A DNA stretch of 24,799 nt from a virus. Under the pieces are notes generated by a model. That model was given only the letters and a program-made list of their open reading frames with translations. It did not search any database and had not been told where the DNA came from. Shown piece by piece: positions 7,304 through 24,799 of this stretch; position 1 is the stretch's first letter; each line of letters starts with the position of its first letter. The position numbers and the translations under genes were made by a program. Where the stretch lies: positions 1 to 24,799 of the IMG/VR virus record IMGVR_UViG_3300047331_000026; one strand, given 5' to 3'.

Positions 7304-8410
7304 TCAGGCGCCGATCGGCGCGCCCGCCCATACCGGCGCCATGCGCGGATCGAATGCGGCCCCGCCGCTTGGCGGTCGGCTTGCAGCATGGGCCAGATAG
7401 TCCGCCATCCAGCGTCCCATTTCCGCACCGTCGATGACGATAGTGCCACCCATCGCCTTGTCACGCTGACGTTGGGATTGCTGTCGCGGCGCCGCCGACG
7501 AGGCACGCTCGCGGGCAACCGGACGGTCCTGTATTTGACGTGTTGGCGCCATCTGTGCGCTGTGCGTCACTGGGGCCAAGCTGGCTGCCGCAGGCGTTTC
7601 GGGCTGCGACGGCGGCGGGAACACCGGTGCTAGCCTGGATTCAAGGTAAACCGTCGGCGCGGACGCGCGATCTGCCGCTCGGCTCACTGCCGCGGCTGGC
7701 CGGGCCATTGCCATTGAAACGGCCGGCGTCGCGACCGGCTGGGCAGGCGGCGGCACCGCCGCCTCCGCCAATCTCACCGGACCTACCTGCGGTGCTGCCG
7801 GCACCGATGGCACCGTACGAAACTGCGTCGGCGGAGCGACTACCGGCGGCATCTGCACCGGGGCGATTGGCGCCAATTGAGCGACAGCAGCCGGCGGCGC
7901 GACCGCCGGCGGGGCAGCCGATTGTGTCTTGGCCTCAGCGGCTGGAGGGGCGGCCCGCCTTGCCGGCTCAGTCGTGGCGGCAGGCGATGTCGGCTGGGCG
8001 AGCTCCGGCAATGCGCGCGTCATCGGCGCTGAAGCGGCGCCCGCGATCGCACCAACGGCTGGCATCGCCGCAGGCGGCGTGGGCACAAAGGTCGCGCCCG
8101 GTTTCTCCGGCCAGGCCGCTGGACCTACGGTCGGGACCGCCGTATTTGCCTCATCTGGCGTCTGAGCATTTGCTGCGGTTTGACGCATAGCCGCTGCGGC
8201 AGAATCGCGCGTCCGCGCCGCCATGGCACCGGCCTGCGCCACCCCCGCGCTCACCGCAACGCGCGCGACCTCCTGCAATCGGACCAGATTTGCCGTTGAA
8301 ACGACGATCGCTGTGTCAAGCGTGCGCAACTCACGCCGTATCGTTGCAATACCGGCCGACACGCCATCATCAAGCGCCAGCGTCAGCCCGACCGTATATG
8401 CATCGTTCAC
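7304..8410 (-). CDS. Putative short tape-measure protein, Pro/Ala-rich
   Basis: 368 residues from ATG 8410, overlapping the stop of the upstream gene as ATGA. Residues 1-80 are helical (LALDDGVSAGIATIRRELRTL, then LVRLQEVARVAVSAG), like the start of tail tape-measure proteins. Residues about 84-300 are low-complexity Pro/Ala (blocks such as PPAVAPPAAVAQLAPIAP). The C-terminus (about 318-368) returns to ordered sequence with GTIVIDGAEMGRWMADYLAH. No transmembrane helix, Zn-protease or lysozyme domain is seen. It is the only gene between the chaperone/completion genes and the distal baseplate genes, the tape-measure slot. 368 residues is short for a myovirus (P2 about 815, Mu about 665). If it is not the tape measure, none is visible. 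Confidence 0.65.
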   Translation of the reverse strand: MNDAYTVGLTLALDDGVSAGIATIRRELRTLDTAIVVSTANLVRLQEVARVAVSAGVAQAGAMAARTRDSAAAAMRQTAANAQTPDEANTAVPTVGPAAWPEKPGATFVPTPPAAMPAVGAIAGAASAPMTRALPELAQPTSPAATTEPARRAAPPAAEAKTQSAAPPAVAPPAAVAQLAPIAPVQMPPVVAPPTQFRTVPSVPAAPQVGPVRLAEAAVPPPAQPVATPAVSMAMARPAAAVSRAADRASAPTVYLESRLAPVFPPPSQPETPAAASLAPVTHSAQMAPTRQIQDRPVARERASSAAPRQQSQRQRDKAMGGTIVIDGAEMGRWMADYLAHAASRPPSGGAAFDPRMAPVWAGAPIGA

Positions 8411-8790
8411 CGCAGCGCCTCCCGCAAGGCCTCAGCGGTGGCCGCGCCGATCTCCGCCGCCGCGTCCGAAGCCGCGGCAATCCCGGCCGGCGCCAGGAAG
8501 GGCCTTGGCGGCACCTCGCGGGTTCCCGCTTCCTGAAACACCGCCGCCGGATCGGTCGAGCCCACAACAATGGAGTCGGCCGACACCTCGTGTCCGATGC
8601 TGCCATGCAGGACGCCGGTCTCCTGCCAGGGTGCCGCGTGATCGTCTCCAGGACGACGGGACAAGGCGTCCACCACTGCCGATTCGATCCGCTGGCCGAT
8701 CGCCTCGCTGGCAGCGCGGCGTGCGGCCGCGAGGTCCAGGGCCTGCAGCGATCGCTCCAGGCCACGCACACGCTCCAGCAACTGCTTCAA
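8407..8790 (-). CDS. Tail-completion/minor tail protein, HK97 gp10-like
   Basis: 127 residues from TTG 8790. This start is preferred over TTG 8805 because GGAGG lies 7 nt before 8790, while a start at 8805 would put that sequence inside the gene. The TTG overlaps the stop of the chaperone frameshift product (TTGA), so translation may be coupled. The N-terminal 40 residues are helical (LLERVRGLERSLQALDLAAARRA). Then come HGSIGHEVSADSIVVGSTDPAAVFQEAGTREVPPRPFL, whose [HQ]-E-[FA]-G-T-x-x-x-P-[PA]-R-P-F core is typical of HK97 gp10/phage virion morphogenesis proteins. Those proteins help complete and join the tail. Confidence 0.75.
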   Translation of the reverse strand: MKQLLERVRGLERSLQALDLAAARRAASEAIGQRIESAVVDALSRRPGDDHAAPWQETGVLHGSIGHEVSADSIVVGSTDPAAVFQEAGTREVPPRPFLAPAGIAAASDAAAEIGAATAEALREALR

Positions 8791-9310
8791 CGCTCCTCCT
8801 CCCAACGCAGGTGCAACCAGTCGAAGCTGCCGCCCTGCAACGTTCCCAGGATCACCACGTAAGCCAGCCGCTCATCCGGCGGCAGCGAGAAGGCAACGTC
8901 GAACGGCACCCCGTTCTTGACCAAATAGAGACAGTCGATCAGATCGGGGTGCCGGCTCAGTTTCCCGCGGATGCCACCATCGCCTGGTGATCCGCCGTTT
9001 CACGCGCGCCAAGCGCCGCTGCCGCCGCTGCGATCCCGCTATCACCCAGCCGTGCGACCAGCGCCTCGATCTGCTGCTCATTGCCTGGCACTGGCACCGG
9101 AACGTCGTCAATCGCCAGCACGGAGCACGCCAGCAGCGCCATGCCCAGCCAGGGTTCGTTCTGGGACAGCACCGGGCCAGCCGCCTTGAACAGTCGCAGC
9201 TTGTCCAGTGCGTTCATCCGCCGCAGGCTGAGCCGGCGCCCCTGCGCATCCGTCACGACGCTCGGTTGACCGGCACCTGCTACGATCTGGGCGGTCGGTC
9301 CACCGCTCAT
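8787..9310 (-). CDS. Tail assembly chaperone, long form by -1 frameshift (gpG-T type)
   Basis: Ribosomes reading the chaperone can slip at GGGAAAC (8966-8960) into the -1 frame. The next codon is then CTG at 8960-8958, and the frame stays open for 57 codons to TGA 8789-8787, giving 174 residues in place of 117. The extension begins LSRHPDLIDCLYLVKNGVPF, continues with AFSLPPDERLAYVVIL and ends LHLRWEEER. It is protein-like, with the balanced charge and aromatic content expected of the T domain of G-T chaperones. It ends exactly where the next gene starts (TTGA overlap). Lambda G/GT, Mu and P2 E/E' all make such pairs (established). The event itself is predicted, not observed. Confidence 0.78.
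8957..9310 (-). CDS. Tail assembly chaperone, short form (gpG-like)
   Basis: 117 residues from ATG 9310, overlapping the tube gene stop as ATGA. The sequence carries RRLSLRRMNALDKLRLFKAAG (about 25-45), then helical Leu/Ala-rich segments and VARLGDSGIAAAAAALG. This helical makeup, small size and position between tube and tape measure are those of Phage_TAC proteins, which hold the tape measure soluble and recruit tube subunits. It ends in GGA AAC TGA, at a slippery heptamer, so a longer form is likely also made. Chaperone identity is from position, frameshift and composition rather than strong sequence recall. Confidence 0.78.
   Translation of the reverse strand: MSGGPTAQIVAGAGQPSVVTDAQGRRLSLRRMNALDKLRLFKAAGPVLSQNEPWLGMALLACSVLAIDDVPVPVPGNEQQIEALVARLGDSGIAAAAAALGARETADHQAMVASAGN
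8960..8966 (-). promoter_or_regulatory. Programmed -1 ribosomal frameshift site (slippery heptamer)
   Basis: On the minus strand the sequence is G GGA AAC in register with the reading frame (GCG GGA AAC TGA), the classic X XXY YYZ pattern, directly followed by the zero-frame stop. Slippage keeps good pairing of both tRNAs. A GC-rich segment follows (GAGCCGGCACCCC), but I cannot confirm a pseudoknot or hairpin by eye. Confidence 0.75.
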
Positions 9311-9735
9311 ACGCGCTGCCGCTGCGAAGCAAAGAACTCAAGCTTCTGTTTGACGCTGGAATCACCTTTCCACTGGCCAGAACTCGCCAGCTTGAAGACC
9401 ACCGTGTCATACTGGTAGGTTGATGTCGATCCGTCCGTCTCGGTGACGTATTGATACACCGTGCCGAACGGCACCCCGTCGCCGTTGTAGTACGAAAGTT
9501 CGGCAGCAGCAATAAAGTCGTCGGCGGCCGACGTGCCGCGCTCCAGCTCGAACGTGCCTTCCCAGCCGCGAGGCAACTCGGCGGCAATCTGCGTGCCGTC
9601 CAGCTTGTCGACGCGGATGGAATGCGTGATCTGCTTGCTCTCGAAGCCTGTAACATAGGACAGGTCGACCCGGCCGGCCGGCCCCATCAGCACCAGCTGA
9701 CAGTCGCGGCCGATATTGAAATTGTTGATCGGCAT
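9307..9735 (-). CDS. Tail tube protein
   Basis: 142 residues from ATG 9735, with AAGGAAA about 7 nt upstream. The protein is beta-rich throughout, opening MPINNFNIGRDCQLVL, with GRVDLSYVTGFESKQI, then AELPRGWEGTFELERGTSAADDFIAAAELSYYNG in the middle and a beta-strand C-terminus (YQYDTVVFKLASSGQWKGDSSVKQKLEFFASQR). This matches the tail tube fold of contractile and siphovirus tails: a single beta-barrel hexamer stacked to form the DNA channel. It follows the sheath gene after 13 nt, the standard order, and the chaperone gene overlaps its stop. Confidence 0.85.
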   Translation of the reverse strand: MPINNFNIGRDCQLVLMGPAGRVDLSYVTGFESKQITHSIRVDKLDGTQIAAELPRGWEGTFELERGTSAADDFIAAAELSYYNGDGVPFGTVYQYVTETDGSTSTYQYDTVVFKLASSGQWKGDSSVKQKLEFFASQRQRV

Positions 9736-9748
9736 CTATGATTTTCCT

Positions 9749-11326
9749 TCAGCTCGACTGACCGCTCGGCAGCGTCTGGCGGCTCACCTCGACCGTCTGG
9801 CCGCCCTCGATATTAACGATGAACTTCTCGTTGATGGCCTGGTAGTTCACCTGCGCATCAGACTGCACATAGCCCAGCTGCGTCCGGCTGGATGGATTGT
9901 TGGAGGTGTCACAAACCACGCTGAACGGCAGCGATCCGTCGGTCGAGCCAAGCATTCCCTGCGACAGCATTTTCTGGAAGAAGCTCAACTGCGTCGAACG
10001 GATGTTCTGGAACAGCTGTGCGTTGATGACCTGGCCAACGTACTGGCCCATGCCGGAAGCCAGCGTCGCCGCGATGTAGTTCGTCAGCCGGGTATAGTTG
10101 TCTCCATTGATAGCGGTGTTTGTGCTGGAGTTGTGGCCGCCCCGAACGCCCCAGTAAGCACCCCCAGGCTGCGGGTTCGCAATCACGTCAATGCCCGCGC
10201 TCAACAACGCCGACAGGTCGGCCGAGGCATAGGTGGTCGCCTGCCCGGAACCCGGCGTGCCAGACTTCTGGCTGCCAACAATGGCATAAAGCTGCTTGTT
10301 GAGGCTCGATTGCTCCGGCGAGAGATTAGCCAGCCGGCCCGCAACGAAGCCCTGCGGTGAGACAAGGCGCACGGTGCCGTTCACCTGGTCGGACCACCAC
10401 AGCCAGTCCCCGAACATCAGCTTGGCCGCATAGCTATCAAGCCCTGCGGACTGCACCACCGCCACGGCATTCTGGATGTTGTCCCCGGCGGGCCCGGTCA
10501 GGATCATGTAGACGCCTTCGGAAAGGCCGAAATCGGCTTGCACGCTCCACTGCGTCGGGTCATCCGCGTCTGCCAGCAGGCCCAGGCTGCAGCCCTGACC
10601 GCGCAGCGCATACATCCCGGTCCGCGGCAACGTGTCGGAACCCACCAGCATCATGGCCGTTAGGTTCGTCGCGCCATCGGTGCCGTTCGCAAACGTGTAG
10701 CTGGCGATCACCGGCGAGCCTGCGACCGAATTGCCGGATCCAACCTGCGCGGTGACTAGCTGCGATGGTCCGCGCTGCAGGCTGATGCCGTTGTTGACCG
10801 CGTTCGCAACGTTCTGCCAAAGCTGCGCGCCGGTGCCGGCGATGTTGTCGAACAGCTCCGGCTGCAGCCCCGGCAGCGTGAGCGTCAGCCGCCAGGTGTT
10901 GGCCGCCGAACCAATCCCCACGCTGGCGCTGAGCGAGTTGCCCAGGCTGCCCGTATACGCCGCCGTCAACAGCAGCGCGTAATCCGTGGCGGAGGAACTC
11001 TGCACCAGGCTTTGCGCCGCCGTATCCGTGCCGTCCGTCACGCGCACGCACCGGAAGTTCTGGGCGCCCTGCTGAACGGCGGTCGCGACCTGGGTACCCA
11101 TGTCGAATTTACGCGCCATCAGCGGCCCGAATTGGCTGGCATAGTCGGCCATCGTCGCCGCGATGACCGGCTGGCCGATCGGCCCCCAGGACGCGCTGCC
11201 GACGATGCCGGTGATGTCGGTCGGCACGCCATTCAGGACCAGGTTCTGTGGCGGCACGATCTGCACATACAGATCCGGCACCACCAGCGCGGTGGTGTTC
11301 ACGCTGCCTTGCTGAACAATCGGCAT
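9749..11326 (-). CDS. Tail sheath protein
   Basis: 525 residues from ATG 11326, with GGAGGT 5 nt upstream; a TTG one codon earlier is not preferred. The start overlaps the stop of the 62-residue gene by one base. Sheath features are visible: VNTTALVVPDLYVQIVPPQN near the start, DITGIVGSASWGPIGQPV (about 37-54), the AQNFRCVRVTDGTD element (about 88-101), and in the C-terminal third GGAYWGVRGGHNSSTN, NYTRLTNYIAATLASGMGQYVGQ and a closing beta strand (EKFIVNIEGGQTVEVSRQTLPSG). Sheath subunits wrap the tube and contract to drive it through the envelope. This gene marks the particle as myovirus-type. Confidence 0.95.
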   Translation of the reverse strand: MPIVQQGSVNTTALVVPDLYVQIVPPQNLVLNGVPTDITGIVGSASWGPIGQPVIAATMADYASQFGPLMARKFDMGTQVATAVQQGAQNFRCVRVTDGTDTAAQSLVQSSSATDYALLLTAAYTGSLGNSLSASVGIGSAANTWRLTLTLPGLQPELFDNIAGTGAQLWQNVANAVNNGISLQRGPSQLVTAQVGSGNSVAGSPVIASYTFANGTDGATNLTAMMLVGSDTLPRTGMYALRGQGCSLGLLADADDPTQWSVQADFGLSEGVYMILTGPAGDNIQNAVAVVQSAGLDSYAAKLMFGDWLWWSDQVNGTVRLVSPQGFVAGRLANLSPEQSSLNKQLYAIVGSQKSGTPGSGQATTYASADLSALLSAGIDVIANPQPGGAYWGVRGGHNSSTNTAINGDNYTRLTNYIAATLASGMGQYVGQVINAQLFQNIRSTQLSFFQKMLSQGMLGSTDGSLPFSVVCDTSNNPSSRTQLGYVQSDAQVNYQAINEKFIVNIEGGQTVEVSRQTLPSGQSS

Positions 11327-11514
11327 CAATGACCTCCCTGCTTGGCCGAGGCCGGCGCCGGCGATTGCGGCCTGGCCGCACTCGGCCCGAGCACGCGCAC
11401 GACATTCAGCGCATGCTCGCCGGCCAGAATGGCTCGTATCTTGGCCGGGTCCGTGACCACGGCGCCGCGGGCGAAGCCGCCGAACGGCCTCACCACAACC
11501 AGTTGCGTATCCAT
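11326..11514 (-). CDS. Small protein preceding the sheath, unknown function
   Basis: 62 residues from ATG 11514. The N-terminal 40 residues look folded (QLVVVRPFGGFARGAVVTDPAKIRAILAGEHALNVVRV, split by a strand-turn-strand with a short helix), and the tail is Pro/Ala/Ser-rich. Mu-like phages carry a short protein (DUF2635, about 60 residues, 'VxVxPxxG' opening) in the same place just before the sheath; this one has the matching V-V-R-P-F-G-G start, so it may be an analogue. I do not recognise a function. It overlaps the sheath start, so it is probably co-translated. Confidence 0.6.
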   Translation of the reverse strand: MDTQLVVVRPFGGFARGAVVTDPAKIRAILAGEHALNVVRVLGPSAARPQSPAPASAKQGGH

Positions 11515-20396: not shown

Positions 20397-20470
20397 ACGT
20401 AGAATTCAGCTCAATCCCTCATTCCTCCGTCAGCGGCACACGCGGTGCCAGAATTTGAGCGGAGCGAGAC

Positions 20471-23400
20471 ATGTCCGGATCGAGCACGACCATCAATGGC
20501 GCCGCCGGAGGCTTGCTGCAGGACACCACCGGCAACACCGTCATCGATCTCGGCAGCCAGCCCGCCTCGGTCCTTGCCGGCCTCGGCACCGACACCATCG
20601 TCGGCGGCAGCGCCGGCATCTCGGTGTTTGCCGCCAACGACCTCAACAATCTCGATGTGCAGGGTGGCGCCGGCACCTTGGTGGTCTCCCTGCTGGATCT
20701 CAGCGGCAACCTGGCCGGCGGCAATGTCACCCTCTCAGGCGGCAGCGCCGGCGAGACGGTCACCGGCGGCTACGGCAACATCGCCATCGCCCAGGCCGGC
20801 GCACTCACCCTGCACCCCGCCAACGGCACCGTGCACATCACCGCCGACGGCCGCCCCATCACCGTCTGGGCGTCGGACAACAGCGGCTACGAGGTATTCA
20901 CGCCGACCACCGGCACCACCGTCATTGTCGCACCCACGTCGGACGGCTACGGCCACACCGAAGTCACCATCGGCAACAGCGAAACCGTCGCACTCGGCAA
21001 CGGCTTCGAAACCATCGGCAGCTCGATCGCCTACCTGACAGGCGCCAGCTCAACCACCTTCGGCAACCCGATCATCCCGGCTCCCGCAACCCCGGTCGTC
21101 AGCGGCCTGACGCCTGCGACCGATACCGGCGTCTCTGATACCGACGGTATCACCACCGACACGCGGCCAGCCTTCACCGGCACCGCCGTGGCCGGCGACC
21201 AGGTGGTGCTGTACATGGATGGCTACACCGAGCTCGGCACGTCGGTGGCCAATGCTCAGGGCAACTGGACGATCACCCCCGCCGCCGCCCTGGGCGCCGG
21301 TACCCACAGCATCACCGCAGAAGCGCTCGATATCTCCGGCGTGCCGAGCAATTTCTCCAACGCCTACAGCGTCGTCATCAGCACCACCGGCCCCAGTACC
21401 CCGGTCATCACCGGCCTCGATGCCAGCACCGACAGCGGCACGGTCGGGGACAGCACCACCAACATCCGCAACGTCAAGATCGACGGCACGTCCGATCCGA
21501 ACGACACCATCGTGCTCTACGATGGCGCTACCTCGGTTGGCAGCGGCGTTGCCAATGCCAGCGGCACCTGGTCCGTCACCAGCACCGTGGCACTGACCGA
21601 CGGCGCGCACGATCTCACCGCGGTCGCCACCGACGCGGGCGGCCTGACCGGGCCCACCTCATCCATCTACGTCGTGACCATCCAGACCACCGCCCCGCTG
21701 CCGCCCACCAACGTGATCCTGGATCCCGGCAGCGACAGCGGCGTGGCCGGCGACGATCTGACGCATGTCACCTCGCCCACGATCGACGGCGCCGCCCCAT
21801 CGGGCGAGACGATCAGGGTGAGCCTCGACGGCACCATCCTGGGCAGCGTCACCGCCGACAGCTCTGGCGACTGGTCCTACGCCATCACCTCCGTGCTGAC
21901 GGCCGGCACCCACGTCGTCACCGCCAACGCGATCGATGATGTCGGCAATATCAGCACCGCCGCCACCCTCGACCTCACGATCGAGCCCACGGCGCCTGCC
22001 CCAGCCATTACCGGCACCGTCGCCACCACCGGCACGATCACGGCCGGCCACCTCACCAACGCCGGCACGGTCACCCTCTCGGGCACCACCACGCAGGGCG
22101 CGACGCTCGCCATCATGGACGGCGGCACCACCATCGGCACCGTCGTCGCCAGCGGCAGCGGGACCTGGTCCGACACCGTGGCGCTCGCGCTCGGCGAAAA
22201 CACGCTGACGGCGATGGTTCATTACGATGCCGCCGGCAACAGCAACGGCCCGGCCTCCGCCGCCCTGGTGCTGGACGTCTACCCGGCGACGCCGGCCGCG
22301 CCCACCATCGCCGGCCTCGCCCCTGCCAGCGACAGCGGCACGCAGGGCGACCAACGCACCGACATCGCCACGCCCACCCTGGTCGGCACCGGCACCGCCG
22401 GCGAACTCGTCACCGTGCTCAGCGGCAACAGCGTTGTCGCCACCGGCACGGTCGGCACCACGGGCACCTGGTCCGTGACCATCGGCACCGCCCTGCCGGT
22501 CGGCGCCACCACCACGCTCACGGCCACCGTCACCGACATCTTCGGCACCACCAGCAGCCGCTCGACCGGCTACGCGCTGACAATCGATCCGACGCCGGCA
22601 CAGCCCGCCATCGCGCTGACGGCCGGCGGCACCATCGCCGGCAGCGCCGAACCGCAATTCACCATCACCTCGGGCGACTCCCTCGCCGACACCTTCACCA
22701 TCTACGATAACGGCACCCAGATCGGTCTCCTCGCGGCGCCGCAGCAGAGCTCGCCCGCCGTCTTCACGCCCAGCACACCGCTGCCGATCGGCTCCGACAC
22801 CATCGTCGCCGTCGCCTCCAACAGCTACGGCGACCTCAGCAACGCGGGCACGGTGGTCATCACCGTCCAGCCCGCCGCGCCGACGCTCGATCCTGCCAGC
22901 GACAGCGGCACGCCAGGCGACGACAGGACCAATGTCAGCCGGCCGCAGATCGACGGCACCGCAACCGCCAATGCCCACGTCACCGTCCTGGACAATGGGG
23001 GCTCGATCGGTGTCACGACTGCCAGCGCCTCCGGCGCCTGGACCTTCACGCCGACCAGCGCGCTGGGCCTCGGCGGCAACACCATTGTCGCCATGGTCAC
23101 CCTCGGCAACAACACAACCATCGCCTCCAACCCGCTCGACCTGACCATCCAGACCGCCGCTCCGACACCCGCCATCACTGCCGCCGTCGCCACCAACACC
23201 GGCACCGTCACCGTCGCCGACCTGACCAACACCGGCACCATCACGCTCAGCGGCACGGCCGAGCAGGGTGCGACGATCATCGTCATGGACAACGGCGTCA
23301 TCCAGTCCGGCAGCGCCATCGTCAATGGCGCCGGCGCCTGGTCCGAAACCCTCACCGTGCAACAGGGCCTCAACACCCTCACGGCAGAAGTTTCCGACGA

Positions 23401-24799
23401 CAGCACCGGCAACAGCAGCGCACCTTCGGCACCGCTGGTGCTGACCGCCTACCCCGCCGCGCCGGCCGCGCCGGCCATCAGCGGCCTCGCCGCCGCAGAT
23501 ACCGGTGGCGAGGGCGGCGCGCTCACCGCCGTCACCAGCCCCACCCTGACGGGCACCGGCTTGGCGCAAGAAACCGTCACCCTGCTGCAGGGCGGCACGG
23601 TGATCGGCACCGGCACCGTCGCCAGCAGCGGCACCTGGGCGGTCGCTGTCGGCACGTCGCTCGCGGTCGGCCAGCACGTCATCACCGCCGAACAGTCCGA
23701 CCCCTTCGGCCGCACCAGCGCGGTCTCGGCCAGCTACACGGTCACGATCGAACCGGTCTCCGCGCCCAGCCTTGACGCCGCCAGCCAGAGTGGCAGCAGC
23801 ACCAGCATCACCAAGATTACCACCCCCCGCATCGACGGCGTGGCGACACCCAACGCGAGTGTGGTGCTGGTCGATAACGGTGGCACCATCGGCAGCACAA
23901 CCGCCAATTCGGCGGGGAACTGGTCGCTGCAGCCCAGCGCCCCGTTCCTCTCCGGCGCCAACACCCTCGTCGCGATGGTGGTCGTCGCCAACGGCGACAC
24001 CGTCGCCTCGTCCCCCTTCGTCCTCACGATCCAGACCAGCGCCGCGGCACCCACCATCACCTTGGCCGCCGCCAGCGACAGCGGCGTCCTCGGCGACGAT
24101 CTTACCAACGTGACCATGCCGACCCTGCTCGGCGCCGCCCCCGACAACGGGATCGTCCGGCTCGCCGACAATGGAACGCTCCTCGCCACCGTCACCGCCA
24201 GCGCGCAGGGGGCCTGGTCGTACACGCCGACCGCCGCGTTCGCCAGCGGCACCAACCTGATCACCGGCGTGGCCACCGATGTTGCCGGCAATATCAGCGC
24301 CGCCGGAAGCCTTGACCTTACAATTGAGACTAGTGTTGCTCCGCCTGCCATCCTCTCCTTTTCACCCAACACCGGCTTGGTGCCGGCCAACAACGACACC
24401 GGCGCTTCGGCCATCACGCTCTACGGCACCGCCGCCGCCGGCAGTGAGGTCATCGTCTACGACAACGGCACCGAACTCACCGAAATCTCGACCAGCAACG
24501 GCCAATGGACGCTCGCGGCCACGCCGACGCTCGGCACCAACAGCTACACCGCAGAGATCGCCAGCGATCCGGCCGGCAACGCGAGCAGCCTTTCCTCGGC
24601 CTTCGTGGTCACCCGCCTCGCCGCGCCCCCGAGCCCCACGATCAGCGGCCTGGCCACCGGCAGCGACAGCGGCGTGGTCGGGGATGGCATCACCAACGTC
24701 ACCCGGCCCAGCTTCACCGGCACCGGCGCCGCCGGCGACCTGGTCAGCCTGCAAAATGCCGGCAGCGTCATCGCGACCGGCACCGTCAACTCCAGCGGC
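20471..24799 (+). CDS. Giant Ig-like repeat surface adhesin, incomplete
   Basis: The frame runs from ATG 20471 (GGAG 6 nt upstream) to the window end with no stop: 1443 codons. There is no N-terminal signal peptide. Residues 1-200 are a Gly/Thr/Ala-rich beta region (TNTVIDLGSQ-like start, LNNLDVQGGAGTLVVSLLDL, GRPITVWASDNSGYEVF, NSETVALGNGFETIGSSIAYL). From about 203, Ig-like domains follow in tandem, each with a D-S-G-x-x-G-D start, a V-x-[VL]-x-[DN]-[NG]-G strand and a G-x-W-[ST] strand. The layout fits BapA/Bap-like biofilm adhesins exported by type I secretion, whose export signal is C-terminal (off-window). Function as adhesin is inferred from architecture. Confidence 0.85.
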   Translation, partial: MSGSSTTINGAAGGLLQDTTGNTVIDLGSQPASVLAGLGTDTIVGGSAGISVFAANDLNNLDVQGGAGTLVVSLLDLSGNLAGGNVTLSGGSAGETVTGGYGNIAIAQAGALTLHPANGTVHITADGRPITVWASDNSGYEVFTPTTGTTVIVAPTSDGYGHTEVTIGNSETVALGNGFETIGSSIAYLTGASSTTFGNPIIPAPATPVVSGLTPATDTGVSDTDGITTDTRPAFTGTAVAGDQVVLYMDGYTELGTSVANAQGNWTITPAAALGAGTHSITAEALDISGVPSNFSNAYSVVISTTGPSTPVITGLDASTDSGTVGDSTTNIRNVKIDGTSDPNDTIVLYDGATSVGSGVANASGTWSVTSTVALTDGAHDLTAVATDAGGLTGPTSSIYVVTIQTTAPLPPTNVILDPGSDSGVAGDDLTHVTSPTIDGAAPSGETIRVSLDGTILGSVTADSSGDWSYAITSVLTAGTHVVTANAIDDVGNISTAATLDLTIEPTAPAPAITGTVATTGTITAGHLTNAGTVTLSGTTTQGATLAIMDGGTTIGTVVASGSGTWSDTVALALGENTLTAMVHYDAAGNSNGPASAALVLDVYPATPAAPTIAGLAPASDSGTQGDQRTDIATPTLVGTGTAGELVTVLSGNSVVATGTVGTTGTWSVTIGTALPVGATTTLTATVTDIFGTTSSRSTGYALTIDPTPAQPAIALTAGGTIAGSAEPQFTITSGDSLADTFTIYDNGTQIGLLAAPQQSSPAVFTPSTPLPIGSDTIVAVASNSYGDLSNAGTVVITVQPAAPTLDPASDSGTPGDDRTNVSRPQIDGTATANAHVTVLDNGGSIGVTTASASGAWTFTPTSALGLGGNTIVAMVTLGNNTTIASNPLDLTIQTAAPTPAITAAVATNTGTVTVADLTNTGTITLSGTAEQGATIIVMDNGVIQSGSAIVNGAGAWSETLTVQQGLNTLTAEVSDDSTGNSSAPSAPLVLTAYPAAPAAPAISGLAAADTGGEGGALTAVTSPTLTGTGLAQETVTLLQGGTVIGTGTVASSGTWAVAVGTSLAVGQHVITAEQSDPFGRTSAVSASYTVTIEPVSAPSLDAASQSGSSTSITKITTPRIDGVATPNASVVLVDNGGTIGSTTANSAGNWSLQPSAPFLSGANTLVAMVVVANGDTVASSPFVLTIQTSAAAPTITLAAASDSGVLGDDLTNVTMPTLLGAAPDNGIVRLADNGTLLATVTASAQGAWSYTPTAAFASGTNLITGVATDVAGNISAAGSLDLTIETSVAPPAILSFSPNTGLVPANNDTGASAITLYGTAAAGSEVIVYDNGTELTEISTSNGQWTLAATPTLGTNSYTAEIASDPAGNASSLSSAFVVTRLAAPPSPTISGLATGSDSGVVGDGITNVTRPSFTGTGAAGDLVSLQNAGSVIATGTVNSSG
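21079..24799 (+). repeat. Tandem Ig-like domain array in the adhesin
   Basis: Twelve full domains and part of a thirteenth start near residues 203, 307, 407, 508, 607, 707, 803, 897, 997, 1096, 1190, 1288 and 1385, a period of 94-104 residues (about 300 bp). The protein repeats are clear; the DNA is diverged. Domains 4 and 8 (shared A-P-A/T-P-A-I-T, then L-T-N-x-G-T-[VI]-T-L-S-G-T), 5 and 9 (D-x-F-G-R/T-T-S), 7 and 10 (A-P-[TS]-L-D, N-T-[IL]-V-A-M-V) and 3 and 11 (D-S-G-V-x-G-D-D-L-T, G-N-I-S) are pairwise most alike. Confidence 0.85.

Follow-up and report, generated by a model that had tools for sequence, protein, structure and literature searches.

The slippery site of phage lambda has the sequence G_GGA_AAG. 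Frameshifting that yields G and G-T products is widespread in long-tailed phages, and in lambda both gpG and gpGT bind the tape measure while T binds the tube protein, the short product being in excess at a ratio of 30:1 (PMC5009743). Phage Mu uses -2 frameshifting for its tail chaperone, and the haloarchaeal viruses HCTV-1 and HCTV-2 have G-T frameshifts at G_GGA_AAC and A_AAA_AAC (PMC5009743). In E. coli these two heptamers work poorly and X_XXA_AAG performs best, and stimulatory structures follow a spacing rule of 5-8 nt (PMC4066793). The closest described phage to the one analysed here is Komagataeibacter phage phiKX1 (LC644975), whose deposited annotation lists two hypothetical proteins, G and a shortened T, without a frameshift, and whose paper mentions neither a chaperone nor a frameshift.

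We analysed a 24.8-kb viral record from IMG/VR (the whole stretch, hereafter the window) that carries head and contractile-tail genes on its minus strand, including those for terminase, portal, major head protein, sheath, baseplate and fibre. The original prediction had placed a programmed -1 frameshift of the G-T type in the tail genes of this record, and the slippery site, the -1 frame, the lack of a start for T, the gene position and the conservation across hundreds of loci all bear it out. We judge at a probability of about 0.92 that this contractile-tailed phage uses a lambda-type programmed -1 ribosomal frameshift. The literature searched, the coverage of which was incomplete, yielded no report of a frameshift in this phage family, which thus appears not to have been described before in this respect; from the sequences compared below, the frameshift is well supported.

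The G/T junction in the tail gene cassette

The cassette, read along the minus strand, begins with the contractile tail sheath gene (9749-11329; phrog_23, E 8e-45), followed by a gene of 142 aa (9307-9735; phrog_12993, function unknown, E 8.7e-42) that is a tail-tube candidate by position. Next comes the zero-frame ORF of G (8957-9310, 117 aa; phrog_20383, function unknown, E 3.6e-21), the predicted tail assembly chaperone, and then T, the -1 frame extension (8787-8960). Downstream lie a tail completion or Neck1-like gene (8407-8790; phrog_5, E 4.8e-11), whose TTG start at 8790-8788 overlaps the T stop TGA (8789-8787), and a 368-aa gene (7304-8410) that is a tape-measure candidate by position and length variation. 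The two overlapping frames of G and T therefore lie between tail-tube and tape-measure candidates that were both assigned by position only. The tape-measure candidate has no family match, is short and is rich in Ala and Pro; its counterparts in relatives range from about 250 to 630 aa, a variation that fits the expectation for a tape measure and that suggests short tails of varying length. In some relatives a gene of 110-130 aa intervenes before the length-variable gene downstream of T. Elsewhere in the window (20400-24760), several minus-strand ORFs, one of them of 672 aa, have no PHROG match.

The 3' end of G reads ...TCC GCG GGA AAC TGA, with the heptamer G_GGA_AAC (8966-8960) in zero-frame register and abutting the stop TGA (8959-8957). 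From the C of AAC (8960), the -1 frame runs for 57 sense codons (LSRHPDLIDCLYLVKNGVPFDVAF...EEER), predicting a G-T fusion of 174 aa. All of these sequence details, including the register, the 57-codon frame and the TTG overlap, had been given correctly at the outset. GGGAAAC occurs only once on the minus strand of the window, at this junction. Searching with the T frame uncovered 476 candidate stretches in viral contigs, and viral and genome contigs together (from metagenomes, isolates and phages) gave 190 non-redundant loci. A heptamer sits at the junction in 187 of them (G_GGA_AAC in 161, A_AAA_AAC in 25 and A_AAA_AAA in one), and on the basis of this shared location it is not a chance occurrence. 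The zero-frame stop follows the heptamer directly in most relatives; where it does not, TCG or TTG mostly comes next and the zero frame closes slightly later. The heptamer is likewise kept at the junction in 37 of 40 distant loci, there nearly always as A_AAA_AAC. Together the two frames give one product, as would be seen if an ordinary frameshift mutation or a sequencing error had split a single ancestral gene, but the recurrence of the same split and heptamer in metagenomes, isolates and phages refutes this explanation, to which we assign almost no weight at all.

The composition of the heptamer is constrained beyond its register. At least nine switches of the first triplet between GGG and AAA are needed on a tree of 145 G+T proteins, three of them forced by well-supported branches, and no mixed first triplet (e.g. 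GAG) was found among the 187 relatives with a heptamer, a pattern that is not expected from protein constraint alone. No AAG-type site was seen, AAC being present at nearly all sites. The extension lies in the -1 frame at every locus with a heptamer, and none has the -2 arrangement of Mu. A few loci depart from this picture: the slip site of L020 is short by one A; L224 (4001) has an intact T and lacks both the heptamer and the 5' stem arm, pointing either to decay or to T being made in some other way; L240 (Rhizobium) has G_GGG_GAA in place of the usual heptamer; and L377 has none at the expected place. In L387 and L388, both from genome G587, the heptamer lies 4-5 codons upstream, with C_CCT_TTG instead of A_AAA_AAC in L388. 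These exceptions may reflect errors, decay or other types of shift.

T bears the marks of coding sequence. Across 52 codons, stops are absent from the T frame at 190 of 190 loci and from the zero frame at none, and divergence at T-frame codon positions 1, 2 and 3 is 0.26, 0.23 and 0.61, respectively. The original prediction had made a conserved heptamer, a -1 frame free of stops and synonymous-site constraint its tests, and all three are seen, the last in these divergences and in the nearly fixed codons of the stem described below. Could T nonetheless be a separate small gene that is coupled to G and initiates without any frameshift at an internal ATG or TTG or at the CTG overlapping the stop? 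Annotation offers some precedent, as in phiKX1 a CDS of 59 aa that begins at an internal ATG omits the first T residues (BCZ76064.1; L322 5351-5530), a short CDS is annotated at T on one Pantoea plasmid, and in the window the first possible start, a TTG at T codon 13, would give 45 aa. Yet no T-frame start (ATG, GTG or TTG) exists upstream of T in 151 of 190 loci, and 113 of 190 lack one both upstream and within the first 12 T codons. Codon 1 is nearly always Leu, spelled CTG, CTA, CTC or CTT, so that conservation does not act on a CTG start, and residues 1-12 evolve as coding sequence. A separate gene would also leave the heptamer and the paired stem unexplained; we therefore regard this possibility as already largely refuted and as very unlikely. 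T is instead probably made as a C-terminal extension of G, with no usable start of its own apparent in most relatives.

The RNA hairpin downstream of the heptamer

A predicted stimulatory RNA hairpin, which had escaped the original prediction and adds to the evidence for a frameshift, spans 8954-8904 on the minus strand. Its arms, CGGCACCCCG (8954-8945) and CGGGGTGCCG (8913-8904), form a stem of 9-10 bp with a weaker inner stem within the loop, and the 5-6 nt that separate it from the heptamer agree with a structure placed about 5-8 nt downstream. For a 90-nt segment of the window the folding energy is -40.6 kcal/mol (z -4.5). Of 187 relatives, 174 retain every one of the nine core pairs and the others eight of nine, versus 1.7% with all nine when the same peptides were recoded synonymously with the family's own codon usage. 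Codon choice is almost invariant where the third base falls within the stem (Val18 GTG at 100%, Gly17 GGG at 99% and His4 CAC at 97%, compared to 46% for GTG and 26% for GGG elsewhere), while Pro19, Asp21 and Phe24 beside the stem show ordinary codon choice.

Covariation also points to a conserved helix. In a diverse set of 63 rows, 94.7% of core cells pair, versus at most 51% when the alignment was slid, and the covariation score is 0.188, versus 0.090 for shuffled and at most 0.081 for slid alignments. Compensatory (two-sided) changes occur at four of the nine core pairs, as in the Pantoea and Aquitalea prophages, where a C-G pair is replaced by an A-U pair, and in more distant relatives the helix often extends through the loop. 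RNAalifold returned almost nothing from the full 61-row alignment and the stem at -12.9 once eight rows, including ones with the stem shifted by one base, had been removed; with 170 near relatives it gave -14.0 versus a best of -6.5 in column shuffles. The alignment row of L396 lacks the first columns, with its stem columns in register. A search of Rfam for the structure gave no match.

These features also bear on whether the frame is changed by the ribosome or by slippage of RNA polymerase. Some relatives have six A in a row (A_AAA_AAC), possibly enough of a run for polymerase slippage, but GGGAAAC, the form in the window and in most of its near relatives, contains no long homopolymer, and a heptamer in codon register followed by a spaced hairpin is a ribosomal arrangement; we hold transcriptional slippage to be highly improbable. 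Under programmed -1 ribosomal frameshifting, most ribosomes would end G at TGA 8959-8957, and a minority would stall at the hairpin with GGA in the P site and AAC in the A site, slip back to GGG and AAA and continue into T to yield the G-T fusion.

Predicted products and distribution of G and T

We infer that slippage occurs and that its products act as a tail assembly chaperone, the latter from the gene position and a weak structural match of G to the chaperone of HK97. The AlphaFold model of G (pLDDT 93.5) has as its best PDB match the HK97 tail assembly chaperone 2ob9, a weak one: Foldseek gave a probability of 0.69 (E 0.23, TM 0.43/0.46, 12-17% identity), and a Z of 5.3 lies above the next rows and below the level that proves kinship. 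The best of five T models scored 90.5 and the other four 55-74, with no fold match in the PDB, and T has no credible match in Pfam, PHROGs or PDB sequences. No Pfam chaperone family gave a match with E of 1 or below for G or T, or of 5 or below for 20 members of T, and G and T are accordingly not filed under the Pfam tail assembly chaperone families. The missing sequence match to a named chaperone family and the missing fold match of T would also suit a genuine frameshift whose product is something other than a tape-measure chaperone, such as a minor structural tail protein. Against this stand the location of G and T, which follow immediately on the sheath gene and the gene in the tube position and precede a tape-measure candidate of variable length, and the HK97 chaperone being the best structural match of the G model, and we consider such a product unlikely. 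As chaperones by analogy with lambda, many G and few G-T would coat the tape-measure protein, T would recruit the tube subunit, and the ratio of G to G-T would govern tail assembly. Some 170 bases without annotation thereby gain a putative function; the existing picture of tail assembly itself is unchanged.

Hundreds of related phages and prophages, most of them from acetic-acid-type bacteria, retain the slip site and the hairpin. A wider profile search detected T in 160 of 397 genomes of Acetobacteraceae (the family of Acidisphaera genome G001), roughly two fifths of those sampled, and in 4 of 385 genomes of the class of G001. Single-sequence tblastn of T against the phage collection gave no match, although phiKX1 carries T. 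The G/T signal also occurs, with A_AAA_AAC, AAA or AAT, in tail cassettes of prophage-like character on plasmids of Pantoea, Aquitalea, Paraburkholderia and Rhodovastum (L417, L418, L420, L422 and L423), where T falls in an unannotated gap. On one contig (CAIYCW010000145.1; L206 and L209), two G/T cassettes lie in opposite orientation about 34 kb apart. Annotation generally omits T or gives a fragment of it: the frame had been expected to be missed by gene callers, and besides phiKX1, T falls in a gap of about 170-190 nt in most of the plasmid prophage records that were examined. The relatives form an extensive natural collection of a single bacterial frameshift signal, a heptamer with a covarying hairpin, in which near-exclusive AAC-type sites can be set against rules derived from E. 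coli.

Comparison with known frameshift systems

AAC at the A site is a eukaryote-like choice that is inefficient in E. coli. One proposal, which we consider doubtful, is that this Asn codon sets the chaperone ratio, with the long covarying hairpin compensating and slippage depending on tRNA-Asn; if true, slippage would proceed via tRNA-Asn (perhaps its queuosine), unlike the tRNA-Lys of lambda. The presence of two host lysine tRNAs as the cause of AAC over AAG did not hold up. Patterns for both tRNA-Lys(CTT) and tRNA-Lys(TTT) occur in five of five Acetobacteraceae genomes examined, and ARAGORN confirmed most of these candidates but found no tRNA in L330, the CTT candidate of G001. Against the explanation, Pantoea prophages also use AAC, and Enterobacterales are expected to have only the UUU tRNA-Lys. 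AAG sites have also been reported in species with both lysine tRNAs (PMC4066793). The codon could instead be held in place by the conserved Asn/Leu found at the junction.

The locus resembles lambda gpG/gpGT in that a predicted -1 slip where G ends adds T, in that G lies just downstream of the tail-tube gene (here a candidate), and in that the slip site belongs to the X_XXY_YYZ class. Unlike in lambda, the heptamer ends in C (AAC) rather than G, the stop of G abuts it and a strong covarying hairpin follows, the tail is contractile, and G and T have no match to Pfam chaperones. HK97 is brought in by its chaperone 2ob9, the best and yet weak PDB match of the predicted G fold (TM about 0.45). Mu likewise makes the chaperone of a contractile tail through a frameshift, but the parallel drawn with it in the original prediction is inexact because the shift in Mu is -2 (PMC5009743) as opposed to -1 here. 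HCTV-1 and HCTV-2, which are archaeal siphoviruses, share both heptamers and the kind of gene that contains them. Closest of all is phiKX1, with homologous sheath, G and T, in which the junction reads A_AAA_AAC TGA and is followed by a stem as in the window.
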